The notes under the pieces were generated by a model. The model was not told where the DNA came from and made no database searches. It saw only the letters and a program-made list of their open reading frames with translations. A stretch of DNA of 44,211 nucleotides, from assembly GCA_017963755.1 (NCBI GenBank), contig JAGCTF010000085.1, positions 1-44,211 on the forward strand, read 5' to 3'. Position numbers and translations under genes: made by a program. The DNA comes from Clostridia bacterium (GTDB taxonomy: Bacteria; Bacillota; Clostridia; UBA1212; UBA1255). Positions 2,402-10,684 of this stretch are shown here, piece by piece; within the stretch, counting starts at the first letter, position 1; each line of letters starts with the position of its first letter.

Positions 2402-2430
2402 TTGACAGTCTCCAGATAATATGTTATGTT
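2402..2430 (+). promoter_or_regulatory. Promoter of the RHS gene
   Basis: TTGACA (2402-2407), 17-base spacer, TATGTT (2425-2430). The stretch 2414-2463, covering the spacer, -10 and early leader, is repeated at 9995-10044 with 45 of 50 matches. Confidence 0.7.
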
Positions 2431-2463
2431 TGCAATCGTAAATTTAGACAAAGTAAGGCATAT
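2414..2463 (+). repeat. Promoter/leader repeat, copy 1
   Basis: 50 bases that match 9995-10044 at 45 positions, including an uninterrupted 20-base block and an 11-base block. It covers the -10 region and the start of the RHS leader. Keeping leader bases downstream of the -10 identical suggests a regulatory site rather than only a promoter. Confidence 0.8.
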
Positions 2464-2494
2464 ATTTAGAGCAGTATTTCAGGGGGCAAGAGCT

Positions 2495-5400
2495 ATGAAC
2501 AGGTTAGAATCATTAGGCTTCATCAAATGGCGGGTCATTGCGGTTTTATTGATCATCACCCTCACTATTCAGCTGATCCCTTCCAGATTTGCAGATCTTA
2601 TACGGTCAAAAGTATGCGCTTCCGAAGAATCGGTATTTTGTGGCAACGAATATCCTGATCTTATTCCCGAGGTTAGTATTGAAGAAGATAATACTGATAT
2701 TTCTAAAGATAAAAAAGGACTTTCAGTAAACGGTGAACTCACAGATCTGAGGAGCAGACACAGTAAGACATACAGATTATCTGACGGCTCGTTTTACAGC
2801 ACTCAATTCAGCTATCCAATACATATCATCGAAGATGATCGCTGGATAGATGTGGATAATACGCTTATTTCGGATCCGGACTGCGGCAGGGTCAAAAATA
2901 CAAAAGGAGTATTCAATGTCAGTTTTCCTCAAATCATTACTCGGGATAAGGAGCAGACCGAAGAAAACAGTATAAGCGTTTCTGGTGAGCAGGGCGGCAT
3001 TTCGTATACTCTTTCTTTACCGGGGCTTACAAATGGACCTTCGTACGAATCATTCGCTGATATTATTCCGGAAACGAAGGATGAAAATACTCAAGATCTT
3101 TCAGTACTTCAGCAATTAGAATTGCTTCCAGCTCTTGAATCCGGTTTGAAATACAGCAACATCACAGATGGAATCAGCCTTGAGTACACTGTAACACCAG
3201 GCGGCATTAAAGAAAACATAATGCTCGAATCTGCGCCTTCAGTAGAATTGCTTGATCAGGGATTTCTTTATAGTTTTGATACAAAAGACCTGATTCCGGA
3301 GCTCGAAGAAAATCGAATCATATTTTTGAATGAGGATGGATATCCTGTCTGTATTTTTTCTGCTCCACTTATGTATGACAGTGCCGGAGCAGTTTCGGAT
3401 AATCTGACTCTCTCTCTTGAAGAAAAAGACGACGGCCTTTTTGAAGTCCGTCTTCTTGCCGATACAGACTGGATCATGGACAGCAAGCGTGTGTTCCCAA
3501 TCGTGATCGATCCGGAGGTAACTGTTGAAGATTCCGAAGTAATCGATTCGGCAGCTACTTTTGATTCGTCGGATAACAGTGTGGCTGCCGGTGTAGCTGT
3601 GGCCGGAGCAAATAAACATGCTGCAGTGAGGCTTAACTGGCCTGAACTGCCGCCGTTTGCTCTGCCTGTAGAAGCAAACTTTAGAGTGAATCACGGCGCA
3701 GTTAATTACAGCGACTGTTATTTGTCCGCGACTGCAGTGAATGAAAACTGGACTGTTTCCGGTCTTGCAAACGGTCTTCCGGCGCATGAACAATTTCCGT
3801 TTCAGCACTTTCATCATATGTTTTACGCTTCTTCATATTTTACACTCGACGTGACTGGGGAAGCAAAAAAGAACTACATTTATGCTCAGAACTATGGTTT
3901 TTTAATCGAAAGCTCAGGCCTGACATCACCTGCAACTCTGTTTTATGCATCAAATATTGAGGCTACTGTTCTGACACTAAGATATCTCAATTACCAGGGT
4001 CTTGAGGAACAATGGAACACACATGCCGCTTCTGTTTCGGATATGTCCGGAACAATATACGTTAAAGATGCTTTCGGCGATTTTGTATATGTTCATGACG
4101 ATCTGACTACTCCGGGAGACGTTCTTCCGCTCAGTGTTAGTCATATATTTAATTTTACTGATGGAAAAGATGAGTTCGGCTATGGCTACGGATTCAGGCT
4201 AAGCCTCTGCAGGACGCTTGAATTTAATCCGGATATCGACGGGTACATCTATACTGACGAAGACGGGACAAAGCATTATTTCCTTTATTCTTCGCAAAAT
4301 GAATATTTGCTGGAAGAAGACCATTCCGTTAAAATAAAAACAGACTCAGGGATTCCGTATATAGTCTGGCCGGATTCAAGCAGACTGACGTTCGGCGATT
4401 CACAAAATAATATTTTGTACGCCTCATCGTATACCGATTACCGGGATATACAGCAGACCTTTCAATACACGTTATTGTCCGGCAGGAAACTTATGACGAA
4501 AGCCATTGACGGCGCCGGTAATTATCTGCAGTTTACATATAATTCCTCCGGTATGCTCACCGGGATAAATGTAAACGGGAGCACAACCAGAAAGTTAACT
4601 TTTACATATGACAGCGGTAAACTGAGCCGCATTACTTATCCGGACTCATCGTACACAGAATTCTACAGTACGTCGCGAACGGTAAACGGAAAAGCGTATT
4701 ATTATCCAAAAAGAATAGTTGATCCGTCCGGTGTTATGATGCGAGTCGCCGTCAGCAGCGGCACACTGAGAGTCAGCAAAATTTATAAAAAAGCGGCAGG
4801 AAGCGGAGACAGTACGGTCGTTGACGCGGATTATGCATTATTTACATATGAACCGTCACGGACAACCGTAAAATACGGATTTGGCAGTCATGAAACAGGC
4901 TCGGAAATAATCAGCTTCGATTATTACGGCAGAGCGGTCAATGCGTTGGATGATAAAGGCAATTCTGTTATTCTTAATTATGACGATACTAATAACGTAT
5001 TTAATAATATAAACAAAGTCCATTCAGAATTGACCGCCGGTCCGAATTATCTTAAAAACTCATCGTTTGAATACGCGAGTCTGTTAAACTGGAGTTTATA
5101 CAGTGGATCGTCCTCCGCAGTAAAATCCGCAGAATACATTTTCCCGGGATTATGCTTCGGATCGAACGTTATGAAATTGACTTCAAACCAGAGTTCAGGC
5201 TATACCGGATACGTCCAGAGCTTATCTTTGAGTTCGGGAACATATACTGCAAGTGTTTATTGCAATGCTTCTTCAGGCACCGGTTCCGGAGGTGCGGTTA
5301 TTGCGTTCATATACAACGATGCAAGTGGAATTACGCAAACTGTAAGCAGTATTCCTGAAAAAGGAAACGGCAGGATGCAGGTGACTTTTACTGTGCCTGC

Positions 5401-8400
5401 CGGAACGTCATCGCAAAAGCTGCTTTTGGGGACGTACAATTACACAGGAACCGTTTACTTTGATGCAGCGCAGGTAGAAACAGGCGGAAGAGCTTCGTAT
5501 TACAATGCTGTTGAAAACGGAGGAGCGCTGTATTCCGTAAGCGGCAATTGGAGCGGAGATATCTCCATAACCACAACTGCGGGGCGAAGCGGATACGTCC
5601 TTTACCTGAGCGGGTCAACTGCTGTTAACCGTTCAGGGGAGCAGCGTATTTATATTTCCAAGACAGATAGCGCGAAACAGTATATACGGCTGTCCGGATG
5701 GTACAAAGCGCCTAACTACTATAATGTCAGAAACGCTAATATTCAGGTCTCGTTTTACAATTCCTCCGGAAGTATTATAAGCGGCAAAACTAAAACAGTT
5801 TATCCGGACAATAATCTGACAGACTGGCAGTATCTTTCAGAATCGTTTTCTGTCAATTTCCCATATTCATATGTAAAAATTACGCTTAATAATTATGGGC
5901 CGGGATATGTTTATTTCGATGACGTGTCATTAATCGCCGAAACGTCATACGAAGATTTTGATATTGACGCCGAATATACATATAACCAGTTCGGATGGGT
6001 CGAAACAGAGACTGCCGCCGACAGATCGGTGACAGATCATACATATTATACCGACTCTGCATCTTCGCTTTTCGGCCGGATAAGAGAAGAACTTACTGCA
6101 GATAAATACGGAAATGAAACTTTTACGGAATATATATACTCGTCATATTATAACGAAGTAACGGATCTGCAATACGTTACATCTGTATATACTCCTTCTG
6201 ACGATGATCTTGAACCGGTTACGACGGTCACGGAGTATCAGTACGGGAATGAAAATACTGATTCGGCGAAATACTGTGGTCATCCGACGCTGATTTTTAC
6301 CAAAGTCAGAGAAGGAAACGGCAATTACAGCGTCACGGAGTACAGTACAAAGAATTACAGATCGGATATGCTGCTTTCCTCAGAAACAGATCTTTTCGGA
6401 ACGGTGACGTCGTATTCCTACAATTCCTACGGCGAACTTACGTCAGTTACACAGAATGGCAGTCCCACGACGTATACGTATGATTCTATGGGACGCGTTA
6501 CGGGAACATCGGGTAAGGCGAGAGTCGGGACAACGAATAATTCTACGGTAAGTGTTTCATTTGCATACAATGCCGGCAGACTCGGCACGATTACACGGTC
6601 TAACAGCTATTACGGTTTAAATTATGACTCCCTTGGGCGTTCGCTGTCCGTGACAGTAAACCGCACGTCGGGCGGCAATACTTCATCAACAGCTATCGCA
6701 AATTACACGTACAGTTCTTCAAACGGGCTCGTTTCCAGGCTGACGTACGGAAACGGGAAATACAAAGATTATACATATAACGCGGCCGGTCAGGTAACCG
6801 CGATCGATTATTCCGGCACTTCCGGTACTGACTATACAAACACATATTCCAATGCCGGCGATGCAATAACAAGGTATAACTCTTTGGAAAATATAACAAA
6901 GAGTTATTCATATGACAGCTCAGGCCGCCCTGTTTACACCGCCTTTTCTAACGGGAAAAGTCTTAAATACACTTATTTAGATAAAAACGATGAATCGTCC
7001 GTCACTTTCCGCGGACTCGCCGCGCAGCCGGATAAATTCAATTACAGGACGTATCCGGCTCAAAGATATACACAAACCGGCTTCAGCGGAAATGTGACCA
7101 CAGAGGCATACAGGTATTTTGATGAGTTCGGAAGACTTTCGTATACAAAAGCAGGTAATAGTGCTATATTGAAAACAGATCTTACATATTTGACGGCAGG
7201 AACTTATCTTGATCAGTCGACATTTAACTATTACAGCAAACTGACAGGCAGAGTCGGTTCTGTGAGTTTTACAAAAAAAGCCTCAAATTCAAACAGTTAT
7301 GTTTCCGTTTCCGGGCTGCCTACGCTGACTTATACTTATGATGCCAAAGGAAACATCGAAACGATATCCGAGGGCGGAGTACTGAAGGTCAAGTATTATT
7401 ACGACGCTCAGAATCAGCTCATACGCGAGGACAATAAGTATTTAAACAACGGCGATGGATACACAGTCGAGTATCGGTATAACGCAGACGGAAATATGAC
7501 TGCCAAGCTTCCTTATGCCTACACAACGGGCAGCACATTCCCGTATGAGTATAGCAATTCCATCGCTCCTTTATATATTAGTTACTCCGCAAGCAATGGC
7601 TGGCGTGACCAGATGACAAGCTATAACGGAAATACTGTAACGTACGACGGAGCGGGCAATATATTGTCATACAACAACGGCGCGTCAATGACGCTTACAT
7701 GGACTCAGGGGAACCGCCTTGCGTCTGTTAACAGAGCCGGTACAACAAGCTCATACCTATATGATGAAAACGGATACCGGACAAGAAAAACAGTTGGTTC
7801 AACGGTTTATACCTATATTTGGGACGGTGAGCGCCTGGTTTCTCAAGATACCGGTACCGCCGGAAGTGAAATTGTTTTTCTATATGATGACTCCGGCAAT
7901 ATGTTTGGTTTCAGAAGAGCCAATACAGTATATTACTACGCTAAAAATTTGCAGGGTGACGTAATCGCAATACTGAACAGTAGCATGAATGTGGTTGCGA
8001 AATATACCTACGACAGCTGGGGAAAGTTGATATCCATAGCAGACGGTAACGGCAACAATATAACCAATAGCACTTCGACCATAGGGTATATAAACCCGAT
8101 AAGGTATCGCAGCTATTATTACGATAATGAGGCAGGATTGTACTACCTGAAGAGCAGATATTATGATCCGGAGATAAACAGGTTTATGAGTGCGGATTTG
8201 GTGATAGGTTCTAATTATTCAGTTATAGGATATAACATGTACATTTATTGTAGTAATAATCCTGTTAATTTTGTTGATCCCTCCGGGAATATTCCTATTG
8301 GCTTAATAATTGCAGCACTTTTTCTCTTCACTCCCGTTGGCGGCACAGCACTACAGATAATAGCATCTGCCGTTTCATATTTAGGAATGTTAGTTGTGTC

Positions 8401-8875
8401 AGTATTTGACAAAGAGGTTAGAGATGATTTAAAATCCATCAAATATAACCCTTTTAATGTCAAAGAAAACAAAGTGTTGTCTTCCCAAAAAGTGTCTTTC
8501 TACAAAGGCGTTCCTGTGTTTAGAACAAATGGAAAAAGATCTGGCACATTTGGCGGCATTTTTTTAAAGAGAGGTGAAACAGAAACTGAACTAAAGCACG
8601 AGAGGGGTCATAGCTGGCAGTTGATGATGATGGGTATTGTTACATATGCTATAACTGTAGCAATTCCTTCGGCTGGCGTTTTGGGTGGATATGATGGAAG
8701 ACCCGACTTAGGAAGGGAGGCATATTATTATGCGCCTTGGGAGACTATGGCTGATATTTTAGGAGGGACGTCTCATGGACAATCAGATAAATATATCACG
8801 GATGCATGGATTTATTATATTACAGGACATTTGATTATCCCAGCTTTCTTTTGGTGGGGAGACGATCCAAAGTAA
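2495..8875 (+). CDS. RHS/YD-repeat surface protein with metalloprotease-like C-terminal tip
   Basis: A 2126-residue secreted or membrane-anchored RHS protein of the WapA type. I chose the ATG at 2495 because AGGGGG lies 8 bases upstream; the reading frame is open from 2426. An N-terminal hydrophobic segment (about 12-30) is the signal or anchor. Then come a DNRLRE-like N-terminal part, two CBM-like beta domains (each ending near VYFDD; about 848-1000 and 1006-1149), tandem YD repeats (about 670-835 and 1160-1850) and the RHS core SRYYDPEINRFMSADL (about 1886-1901). After NPVNFVDPSGN (about 1922-1932) the sequence turns AT-rich and unrelated: a hydrophobic stretch (1933-1972), then HERGH at 2035-2039 and a WETMAD motif (Glu 2083), a plausible zincin site. 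By analogy with WapA and Rhs toxins this tip is probably a contact-delivered toxin; the enzymatic role is inference. Confidence 0.88.
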   Translation: MNRLESLGFIKWRVIAVLLIITLTIQLIPSRFADLIRSKVCASEESVFCGNEYPDLIPEVSIEEDNTDISKDKKGLSVNGELTDLRSRHSKTYRLSDGSFYSTQFSYPIHIIEDDRWIDVDNTLISDPDCGRVKNTKGVFNVSFPQIITRDKEQTEENSISVSGEQGGISYTLSLPGLTNGPSYESFADIIPETKDENTQDLSVLQQLELLPALESGLKYSNITDGISLEYTVTPGGIKENIMLESAPSVELLDQGFLYSFDTKDLIPELEENRIIFLNEDGYPVCIFSAPLMYDSAGAVSDNLTLSLEEKDDGLFEVRLLADTDWIMDSKRVFPIVIDPEVTVEDSEVIDSAATFDSSDNSVAAGVAVAGANKHAAVRLNWPELPPFALPVEANFRVNHGAVNYSDCYLSATAVNENWTVSGLANGLPAHEQFPFQHFHHMFYASSYFTLDVTGEAKKNYIYAQNYGFLIESSGLTSPATLFYASNIEATVLTLRYLNYQGLEEQWNTHAASVSDMSGTIYVKDAFGDFVYVHDDLTTPGDVLPLSVSHIFNFTDGKDEFGYGYGFRLSLCRTLEFNPDIDGYIYTDEDGTKHYFLYSSQNEYLLEEDHSVKIKTDSGIPYIVWPDSSRLTFGDSQNNILYASSYTDYRDIQQTFQYTLLSGRKLMTKAIDGAGNYLQFTYNSSGMLTGINVNGSTTRKLTFTYDSGKLSRITYPDSSYTEFYSTSRTVNGKAYYYPKRIVDPSGVMMRVAVSSGTLRVSKIYKKAAGSGDSTVVDADYALFTYEPSRTTVKYGFGSHETGSEIISFDYYGRAVNALDDKGNSVILNYDDTNNVFNNINKVHSELTAGPNYLKNSSFEYASLLNWSLYSGSSSAVKSAEYIFPGLCFGSNVMKLTSNQSSGYTGYVQSLSLSSGTYTASVYCNASSGTGSGGAVIAFIYNDASGITQTVSSIPEKGNGRMQVTFTVPAGTSSQKLLLGTYNYTGTVYFDAAQVETGGRASYYNAVENGGALYSVSGNWSGDISITTTAGRSGYVLYLSGSTAVNRSGEQRIYISKTDSAKQYIRLSGWYKAPNYYNVRNANIQVSFYNSSGSIISGKTKTVYPDNNLTDWQYLSESFSVNFPYSYVKITLNNYGPGYVYFDDVSLIAETSYEDFDIDAEYTYNQFGWVETETAADRSVTDHTYYTDSASSLFGRIREELTADKYGNETFTEYIYSSYYNEVTDLQYVTSVYTPSDDDLEPVTTVTEYQYGNENTDSAKYCGHPTLIFTKVREGNGNYSVTEYSTKNYRSDMLLSSETDLFGTVTSYSYNSYGELTSVTQNGSPTTYTYDSMGRVTGTSGKARVGTTNNSTVSVSFAYNAGRLGTITRSNSYYGLNYDSLGRSLSVTVNRTSGGNTSSTAIANYTYSSSNGLVSRLTYGNGKYKDYTYNAAGQVTAIDYSGTSGTDYTNTYSNAGDAITRYNSLENITKSYSYDSSGRPVYTAFSNGKSLKYTYLDKNDESSVTFRGLAAQPDKFNYRTYPAQRYTQTGFSGNVTTEAYRYFDEFGRLSYTKAGNSAILKTDLTYLTAGTYLDQSTFNYYSKLTGRVGSVSFTKKASNSNSYVSVSGLPTLTYTYDAKGNIETISEGGVLKVKYYYDAQNQLIREDNKYLNNGDGYTVEYRYNADGNMTAKLPYAYTTGSTFPYEYSNSIAPLYISYSASNGWRDQMTSYNGNTVTYDGAGNILSYNNGASMTLTWTQGNRLASVNRAGTTSSYLYDENGYRTRKTVGSTVYTYIWDGERLVSQDTGTAGSEIVFLYDDSGNMFGFRRANTVYYYAKNLQGDVIAILNSSMNVVAKYTYDSWGKLISIADGNGNNITNSTSTIGYINPIRYRSYYYDNEAGLYYLKSRYYDPEINRFMSADLVIGSNYSVIGYNMYIYCSNNPVNFVDPSGNIPIGLIIAALFLFTPVGGTALQIIASAVSYLGMLVVSVFDKEVRDDLKSIKYNPFNVKENKVLSSQKVSFYKGVPVFRTNGKRSGTFGGIFLKRGETETELKHERGHSWQLMMMGIVTYAITVAIPSAGVLGGYDGRPDLGREAYYYAPWETMADILGGTSHGQSDKYITDAWIYYITGHLIIPAFFWWGDDPK

Positions 8876-8894
8876 TATTGACAAGGAGGCAGTT

Positions 8895-9470
8895 ATGAAA
8901 AGAAAGTTTATTCCCCTTTTTAGTATAGTTATACTATGTTTTATTTTGGCATCCTGCTGTTTTGTAGCGTGGGACCCGGGTAAGTTTAGGATATCTGACG
9001 AACTAGTTTCGAATGATATTAAGGAAATTAATTACATAATTCTTAATACAAATGTTCCTGTGCTCAAATATCCGAGGGAAATAAATCAACCTGAAGCAGA
9101 TATCGATCTCGAAAGTATAGAAGTAATAACTACACTTGATGGCGAAAGAATAACAACGTTTTTTACAGAATTATCAGAACTTTCATTTTGGGTGGCATAT
9201 CCGTTTAACGTTAGAAAATATCCAGAAACTCCATTTGGGCAAGGCGCTCAGATAAAACTCACAGATGGCTCTTTTTATTTAATAACTTATTATAATGATA
9301 TGAATAATACCAAAGGAGGATATACCGGCAGAATCGATTTATATGATAAAAACGGAGGGCATTTGAGATGTTGCTCAAATTTTAATTATGCTTACGACTT
9401 TGAAGCTTTAATGTTAAAATATTTTGATAATTATATAGCTATCCTTCCAGAATTGCCTACGGTGAAGTGA
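8895..9470 (+). CDS. Small lipoprotein, candidate immunity protein
   Basis: 191 residues with a classic lipoprotein signal: basic start, hydrophobic core, lipobox LASC with Cys near residue 21. It would be anchored on the outer face of the membrane. The start has AAGGAGG 5 bases upstream and lies only 19 bases after the RHS stop, so the two are co-transcribed. I recognise no family in the body. It shares the AT-rich composition of the RHS tip. In polymorphic toxin loci the gene directly after the toxin normally encodes the immunity protein; a surface lipoprotein would fit a toxin acting outside or at the membrane, but this is inferred from position only. Confidence 0.75.
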   Translation: MKRKFIPLFSIVILCFILASCCFVAWDPGKFRISDELVSNDIKEINYIILNTNVPVLKYPREINQPEADIDLESIEVITTLDGERITTFFTELSELSFWVAYPFNVRKYPETPFGQGAQIKLTDGSFYLITYYNDMNNTKGGYTGRIDLYDKNGGHLRCCSNFNYAYDFEALMLKYFDNYIAILPELPTVK

Positions 9471-9638
9471 AAAGTTAAAATCTACTCTCGGATTCTGCAA
9501 AAAAGAAGACTTTACTCTTACACTTTTGCAAGAAAAATTTAGTTTTTCTTATCACTTTTAGCAGAATTTGCAGGCGTTGTAAAGGCATCGGCTTCGCCTC
9601 GTTTGAAACGGCCTTGACACCCCCTGCAAGGAAGATGC
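9471..9638. other. Gap after the RHS operon
   Basis: No gene. An AT-only hairpin (AAGAAAAA / TTTTTCTT, 9530-9550) might act as a weak terminator for the RHS operon. A TTGACA near 9614 has a TATTAT only at 19-base spacing, so I do not call a promoter. Confidence 0.35.
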
Positions 9639-9885
9639 TATTATTCAGATTCACTCAGATCCATTCCCGGAAGAAGCCTTCTGAAAATATGCAGTCAATA
9701 AAGTTTGGCGCACCGGAATATTGAGATGCAGCACTGGATTCTTGATGTTCAATTGAAGGAAGATAGATAGAGATATTTCGAGAAAAGATAATGCAGTTAA
9801 AAACAACTCGATTATTAAAAGATTTGGCATGCACGTTAAGAATAACTGCAAATTCAAAGAGTACAGGCTTTCAAATTTTTCATGA
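9639..9885 (+). pseudogene. ISAs1-family (H-repeat type) transposase C-terminal remnant
   Basis: In the frame from 9639 the translation runs YYSDSLRSIPGR..., then HRNIEMQHWILDVQLKEDR (9711-9767); after a frame change it continues SRKDNAVKNNSIIKRF (9778 on). This follows the order of the ISAs1 transposase C-terminus, whose usual form is YYISSL, then HWxIEN-LHWVLDV-F-ED, then SR-RK-NA-N. In-frame stops at 9699 and 9768 plus a frameshift show it is dead; the N-terminal part and both ends of the element are missing. E. coli Rhs loci carry H-repeats, which are ISAs1-family elements, at their 3' side, so the position here is notable. The call rests on motif memory, not an alignment. Confidence 0.6.
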
Positions 9886-9982
9886 ATAATCTGTTCAAGA
9901 TTGAGAATGTAACAGAAATCCTTGCTGCTCAAACCAATAATCCTTCTTCATGCCTTTGCGATAGCCCGTTTTGCTTGGCCGG

Positions 9983-10011
9983 TTTACATTGCTAAGATAA
10001 TATGTTAAAAT
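9983..10011 (+). promoter_or_regulatory. Second copy of the RHS-type promoter
   Basis: TTTACA (9983-9988), 17-base spacer, TAAAAT (10006-10011). Same architecture and mostly same sequence as the RHS promoter at 2402-2430. It would drive the membrane protein at 10145 with a leader of about 125 bases. Confidence 0.65.
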
Positions 10012-10044
10012 CGCAATCGTAAATTTAGACAAGGTAAGGCATAT
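9995..10044 (+). repeat. Promoter/leader repeat, copy 2
   Basis: Direct repeat of 2414-2463 (45 of 50 bases). The two copies bracket the RHS gene, the lipoprotein and the transposase remnant. The stretch from here to 10144 holds no other gene I can see. Confidence 0.8.
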
Positions 10045-10144
10045 GATTTAACCACTTCAGTAATAGTCAGTGCTTTATCCTGGCTTGGTGGGTTAGTCAT
10101 GAAACAAGCAAAAAGTAATGCATGAGTTCATTTAGGAGGAAAAG

Positions 10145-10684
10145 ATGAAAAAAATGTATGCCGGAGGGTGGTTCGAGATAGTACTGATTTTTGGTCCTTT
10201 TTTCGGTATATTTCTCTATGTATTGCCAGGGGTTATTCTGTTCTGTAATTATGGGTTCAACGAAGCAGTATTGATTATCGCAATTTGTGTTTTTCTTATG
10301 TTTTGCGTTTTTGGTATTCTTATATGGCACGGCAGAATTCTGTTTCTTACGTGGATTACTTTCCTTGATGAGTATTTGATCATCAAAACACTTTTTCGGA
10401 AAGCAGTAATAATGCGTTATAATGAAATTGCTGGATGTGGGATAGGTTATTATTTTCATGGAAGAATGATCTCTGGTATTGGTATTATGCGATATTACTT
10501 TTTTTTATCGAACGGCGAATTTGACGATTCCCTTAGGAAAACAATAAACAGATGGAGGCCCAAAAAACAAAAGTACGTTAAAATCGCGTTTAGTCAGAAA
10601 AAATATGATTATATACTGACAAAATTGCCGAAAAATCTTTCAACAATTATTCGTTATGACCACGATCGATTCATTCCGAGGTAA
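10145..10684 (+). CDS. Small membrane protein with possible bacterial PH-like domain
   Basis: 179 residues, start supported by TTAGGAGG 6 bases upstream. Two hydrophobic segments lie at about 9-32 and 38-60, followed by a cytoplasmic domain whose layout (LDEYLIIKTLFRKAVIMRYNEIAG) resembles the bPH-like domains found after a pair of membrane helices in Firmicutes proteins. The gene is AT-rich like the RHS tip and unlike the flanking chromosome, and its promoter copies that of the RHS gene. It could be a second immunity or accessory gene of the island, but no function can be read from the sequence. Confidence 0.7.
   Translation: MKKMYAGGWFEIVLIFGPFFGIFLYVLPGVILFCNYGFNEAVLIIAICVFLMFCVFGILIWHGRILFLTWITFLDEYLIIKTLFRKAVIMRYNEIAGCGIGYYFHGRMISGIGIMRYYFFLSNGEFDDSLRKTINRWRPKKQKYVKIAFSQKKYDYILTKLPKNLSTIIRYDHDRFIPR

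Follow-up and report, generated by a model that had tools for sequence, protein, structure and literature searches.

The best-studied Rhs/WapA toxins of Gram-positive bacteria are nucleases with cytoplasmic immunity. For S. suis WapA, a cleavage site TDPSG has been reported (PMC12704120). Metallopeptidase tips on Rhs proteins, those of Firmicutes included, have been predicted since 2012, and the zincin plan of the PVC-metallopeptidases has three strands, histidines on the second helix and a glutamate on the third (PMC3482391). The same collection contains Imm65, a lipoprotein that serves as immunity protein with Tox-JAB-1 and was termed the only one of its kind there (PMC3482391). The Tpe-Tpi pairs of Gram-negative type VI systems (VgrG2b/PA0261 of Pseudomonas aeruginosa and Tpe1/Tpi1 of Acinetobacter baylyi) include metallopeptidase effectors that act in the periplasm and require their HExxH motif; the third ligand in VgrG2b is a Glu at the top of a helix, and the Salmonella arizonae immunity ortholog is a lipoprotein (PMC6899460). 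TelC, an LXG toxin of Streptococcus intermedius (TelC/TipC), is harmful only if it is directed outside the cytoplasm (PMC5555719).

Here we describe a locus in a stretch of DNA of 44,211 nucleotides (the window) from a Clostridia bacterium, a source described as a gut-type bacterium with a giant secreted Rhs protein. Like other Gram-positive WapA/Rhs toxins, the protein has a Sec signal, YD repeats, an RHS core, a DPSG junction, a variable tip and an adjoining predicted immunity gene (Table 1). We think it probable that its C-terminal tip is an Rhs/WapA toxin of the gluzincin metallopeptidase type that acts outside the cytoplasm and is blocked by a surface lipoprotein. Judged from the sequence and a structural model, HERGH very probably marks a metallopeptidase site, and we regard it as very probable that the tip works as an antibacterial toxin to which a lipoprotein confers immunity.

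Table 1. Features of the Rhs locus in the window (residues of the tip are numbered from its first residue).
Feature	Coordinates	Strand	Basis
Rhs/WapA-like secreted protein, 2126 aa from ATG	2495..8875	+	translation; RHS_repeat, Rhs_assc_core and YD_repeat_2x matches
Probable Sec signal peptide, MNRLESLGFIKWRVIAVLLIITLTIQLIPSRFADLIRSKVCA	2495..2620	+	inferred from a basic start followed by a hydrophobic run
RHS-associated core domain, ending in NPVNFVDPSG	8009..8287	+	TIGR03696, E 7.9e-21
DPSG junction, where the tip is likely released	8276..8287	+	sequence; cleavage inferred
Probable toxin tip, 194 aa, predicted zinc metallopeptidase	8291..8872	+	sequence, alignment, AlphaFold model
Two hydrophobic tip helices (residues 1-37), possible membrane-binding hairpin	8291..8401	+	hydropathy; AlphaFold helices 3-13 and 15-37
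HERGH (tip residues 103-107), predicted zinc-binding and catalytic motif	8597..8611	+	all but Arg invariant in 30 relatives; in helix 98-114
Glu151 of PWETMAD, predicted third zinc ligand	8741..8743	+	invariant in 30 relatives; opens helix 149-158
Shine-Dalgarno AAGGAGG of the lipoprotein gene	8883..8889	+	sequence
Lipoprotein, 191 aa, predicted cognate immunity protein	8895..9470	+	lipobox Cys21; likeness to the G023 partner; family A4

The longest open reading frame of the Rhs gene opens at 2426 and encodes 2149 aa (2426-8875). The ATG at 2495, with a GGGGG element just upstream, is the better start. Translation from this ATG gives a product with a signal peptide, and it reproduces the residue numbers that the earlier note had assigned to the motif (2035-2039) and to the downstream glutamate (2083), which are correct provided that this start is used. 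The carrier matches RHS_repeat in Pfam (E 1.4e-19) and Rhs_assc_core and YD_repeat_2x in NCBIfam, so that YD repeats and an RHS-associated core lie ahead of the tip. The carrier in genome G023 is similar to it along the whole length, and unrelated tips are found behind the RHS cores of other relatives. Because related RHS bodies bear other tips, the tip behaves as a swappable cassette.

A 50-nt direct repeat (2414-2463 and 9995-10044, 90% identical) flanks the Rhs and lipoprotein genes and may mark the borders of a duplicated or inserted segment. The approximately 670 bases behind the lipoprotein gene (9471-10144) are AT-rich, without a clear gene, and possibly decayed. They are followed by a gene of low GC content (10145-10684) that encodes a membrane protein of 179 aa and has relatives in only three others of 97 genomes. 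This gene may be the orphaned immunity partner of some other toxin; it was compared with the downstream gene of another tip as a possible relative, and no match was found.

The earlier note had claimed that, at 8258-8875, the sequence after NPVNFVDPSGN becomes AT-rich and unrelated to the YD repeats, with a hydrophobic stretch, an HERGH motif and a downstream Glu in the pattern of a zincin. The tip is indeed in frame there, NPVNFVDPSGN running on into IPIGLIIAALF, and the HERGH motif is both in frame and kept in relatives. The RHS family models have no match to the tip, and the core model stops at 8287. The hydrophobic stretch is likewise borne out, as two segments that open the tip (residues 1-37) and one past HERGH (110-134). 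The compositional claim holds only in a mild form: the GC content of the tip is 0.397, against 0.43 in the RHS body and 0.50 in the remainder of the window, and the gene at 8895 stands at 0.33. Any HExxH motif occurs in a shuffled tip with a probability of about 0.0025, and conservation is the stronger argument for the motif.

Searches of related genomes gave matches in seven genomes, and among the matches is a further copy, 49% identical, from the genome of the window itself. An alignment of eight relatives then recovered more in Clostridia, and a scan of named genomes added further Clostridia, Acholeplasmataceae, Anaeroplasmataceae and one Treponema. The family is uncommon, occurring in 2 of the 398 genomes of a broad phylum sample, the window's own not counted. 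Searches with the single tip sequence against genome contigs, viral contigs, plasmids and phages found no match. Several of the Rhs-linked tips (L037, L038, L040, L042 and L049) come from wall-less Acholeplasmataceae or Anaeroplasmataceae; a search of one literature collection for Rhs toxins in Acholeplasma turned up no paper.

Nine residues (H103, E104, G106, H107, Q110, S127, E151, A154 and G158) are invariant in 30 aligned relatives whose identity falls to about 20%, an invariance that is in part circular for the wide set, which was extracted by the pattern HExGHxxQ. The first eight relatives, collected without a motif filter, hold all of these residues, and all relatives found by similarity that span the region retain the motif and the downstream Glu. 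The conserved pattern (H-E-x-G-H-x-x-Q, a Ser, and a downstream E-x-x-A...G) is a gluzincin-type signature. It combines a conserved HExxH within a predicted helix with a conserved downstream Glu in an ExxA context, and E151 would be a metal ligand.

An AlphaFold2 model of the tip built from eight sequences has a mean pLDDT of 86.6 and a pTM of 0.85. It begins with the two hydrophobic helices and continues with short helices and a small beta sheet of three strands (68-71, 74-79 and 90-93). Next come the helix that contains HERGH, more helices, and one that starts with Pro-Trp-Glu151. This predicted arrangement fits both the zincin plan of the PVC-metallopeptidases and the placement of the Glu in VgrG2b. 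A Foldseek search against the PDB found no solved zincin (the best E value, 3.3, is at chance level), and searches of solved structures by sequence and by profile gave chance matches only. Against viral models, Foldseek returned two small proteins with a probability of 1.00 (E 0.005 and 0.011, both above the line of 0.001) and, weakly, a crAss-like entry named Vgr2b binding protein (probability 0.91, E 0.39). The tip profile matched eCIS_core (20% probability) and M48 zincins weakly, resting on the motif itself, and an alignment of the lipoproteins, used as a negative control, scored even lower. The zincin reading is well backed by the invariant H, E, H and Glu in 30 relatives and by a confident model, but Foldseek found no solved zincin.

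The tip family is absent from Pfam, NCBIfam, PADLOC and PHROGs, and none of the Pfam models, including the toxin metallopeptidases (those Tox-MPTase models held in Pfam) and eCIS_core (PF13699), matched any of 30 members. Because Pfam, NCBIfam and the solved structures gave no match, we regard the family as uncatalogued. The earlier note had set a hit to a known non-protease family against its own reading; none appeared in the family and profile searches. A weak match of the tip to RAMP4 spans only the hydrophobic start and was dismissed as chance.

The gene behind the tip begins 20 bases past the tip stop, and its product has a signal peptide with a lipobox. It belongs to a family of six partners (A4). 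The lipoproteins of the window and of G023 are 34% identical over their length, and the corresponding tips are about 57% identical. Lipobox prediction places a lipoprotein gene directly downstream of 14 of the 15 RHS-linked tips of the family; behind the remaining tip, L046, is a gene for a single-pass membrane protein from the second lipoprotein family. In contrast, only 1 of 20 other RHS tips in related genomes has a lipoprotein gene behind it (Fisher p 9e-8, for related loci that are not fully independent and with a lipobox rule written after the pattern had been noticed). At least three families of partners (A4, A8 and A7) can be told apart, and their mature parts do not align with one another. 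They share a location and not an evident descent, because profile comparisons align mainly their signal peptides. A Foldseek search of the lipoprotein against the PDB found no match.

The distribution of the lipoprotein genes resembles that of immunity genes. In G026, most of the Rhs gene has been lost and the last residues of the tip, ERAWCYYALSYLIFPAFFWWDESY, remain nearly as in G023, with an open lipoprotein gene directly behind this remnant; in G030, the lipoprotein is present and no tip was detected. Both are draft genomes, in which a tip elsewhere could have been missed, and the retention of the lipoprotein after loss of the toxin is immunity-like behaviour. A second RHS core remnant follows the lipoprotein gene in G026 (L098 / L101, contig C31). 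Arrays of tip and lipoprotein cassettes occur at L037 and L048, and at L048 two different tips of the family stand in tandem, each with its own lipoprotein. With a cognate partner family and this retention, the adjoining gene downstream of the tip is a predicted immunity gene, and its sequence and setting suggest that the 8895 lipoprotein very probably protects the producer.

Several described systems resemble parts of this locus. The Tpe-Tpi effectors have an HExxH motif and a later Glu at the top of a helix, as predicted for the tip; they are antibacterial outside the cytoplasm, and their immunity proteins are exported or membrane-anchored, as we propose here from the lipobox in 14 of 15 partners and the predicted membrane anchor of the other. 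However, they are delivered by type VI secretion on VgrG or other type VI components, whereas the carrier in the window is a Sec-type Rhs protein with a signal peptide and a hairpin-bearing tip, and no sequence or fold match between these effectors and the tip was found. TelC uses another secretion route and is a lipid II phosphatase, not a peptidase. Tpe-Tpi and TelC are precedents for action outside the cytoplasm; our comparisons gave no sign of relationship for either. The Tox-MPTase1-5 and toxin PVC-metallopeptidase families (PMC3482391) are likewise predicted zincin tips on RHS proteins, and the PVC-type HExxHxxQ-E signature is common to the window tip family, but their Pfam models match neither the tip nor any of its 30 relatives. 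Imm65 works with a different toxin family, Tox-JAB-1, whereas the single toxin family of this study is paired with several families of lipoproteins. The earlier note had proposed a distinct effector class. Metallopeptidase tips on Rhs proteins are not new, but the family is uncatalogued and its pairing with surface lipoproteins is constant. We conclude that the tip is a new family within the known Rhs toxins, unusual for its constant link to surface immunity.

The analysis shows the architecture of the locus, a conserved predicted active site, the gene pairing, the lipobox and lipoprotein genes kept after toxin loss. On these features we build the following proposal, in which the tip would be a toxic, zinc-binding protease. 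The contact-type Rhs/WapA polymorphic toxin would be exported by Sec, and its tip would be freed at the DPSG junction. The tip would then reach the envelope of a neighbouring bacterium and settle at the outer face of its cytoplasmic membrane, either on the surface or embedded in it. There it would cut an exposed envelope or membrane protein of that cell. The 8895 lipoprotein, anchored on the same outer face, would bind and block the tip. We propose that the producer survives because the next gene encodes this outer-face lipoprotein.

A metallopeptidase tip could instead act in the target cytoplasm, the hairpin aiding the crossing and the lipoprotein blocking entry and not catalysis. The hydrophobic helices with which the tip begins fit such a route. 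Other types of Rhs tips in these genomes often have neighbours without a membrane segment, suggesting cytoplasmic action of those tips, and some immunity proteins may block uptake at the membrane (Zhang et al., PMC3482391). We nevertheless consider this rather unlikely: the partners belong to three or more unrelated families, every one of them anchored at the surface, for which a site outside is simpler, and there are established cases of metallopeptidase effectors that act outside the cytoplasm and have exported immunity proteins (PMC6899460). The hydrophobic residues (1-37 and 110-134) and the location of the lipoprotein partners at the membrane would also suit a domain whose helices permeabilize the membrane, with HExGH activity minor or regulatory. 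However, the hydrophobic N terminus is variable, and shorter in the RHS-linked tips L043, L048 and L049, whereas the HExGHxxQ...E set is constant in 30 relatives, which makes permeabilization very improbable.

Related standalone membrane proteins are spread widely over Clostridia without a lipoprotein neighbour, as might be expected if the tip were a processing or housekeeping peptidase borne on a surface protein and no toxin, with the lipoprotein as its partner or substrate. We give this little credence, given the placement of the tip after an RHS core and its exchange with other tips, the cassette arrays at L037 and L048, and the survival of lipoprotein genes after loss of the tip. Fold and family searches without a match would also be expected if HERGH were a chance motif in a non-enzymatic domain, but it is hardly believable that chance would leave precisely the zincin residues invariant at about 20% identity. 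Toxic proteolysis outside the cytoplasm is the reading that we prefer.

The standalone relatives bear on the history of the domain. In a tree with many weak forks, a single supported group of standalone proteins unites eleven distant relatives, and closer ones (the copy in the window's own genome and those of G006 and G001) are nested within the RHS-tip group, with the G001 protein as sister to the window tip. A lipoprotein is the next gene in none of these; it is the next gene at L018, another standalone ORF. Standalone relatives without an adjacent lipoprotein indicate that there are settings in which the domain does no harm. The simplest reading of the sequences, which we treat as a lead, is that tips were recruited as cellular membrane proteins in the window's genus. 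The own-genome copy (L011 387-1121, G000:C215) has extra N-terminal hydrophobic segments and overlaps the 3' end of the gene upstream, which encodes a protein of 375 aa. We speculate, as a possible though doubtful extension, that there is an uncatalogued superfamily of small membrane-bound HExGHxxQ metallopeptidases, comprising a housekeeping membrane protease of Clostridia and an Rhs weapon for cleaving membrane proteins from the outer side (in Clostridia and wall-less Acholeplasmataceae), with tips re-adopted as standalone membrane proteins in the window's genus.

The analysis brings to notice a putative metallopeptidase family, so far uncharacterised, with standalone members in Clostridia as well, and the tip and the 8895 gene make a cheap testable pair. 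A neighbouring lipoprotein could be a simple predictor of where an Rhs tip acts. If our reading is true, the weapons that Rhs proteins deliver would also include proteases aimed at the membrane's outer face.
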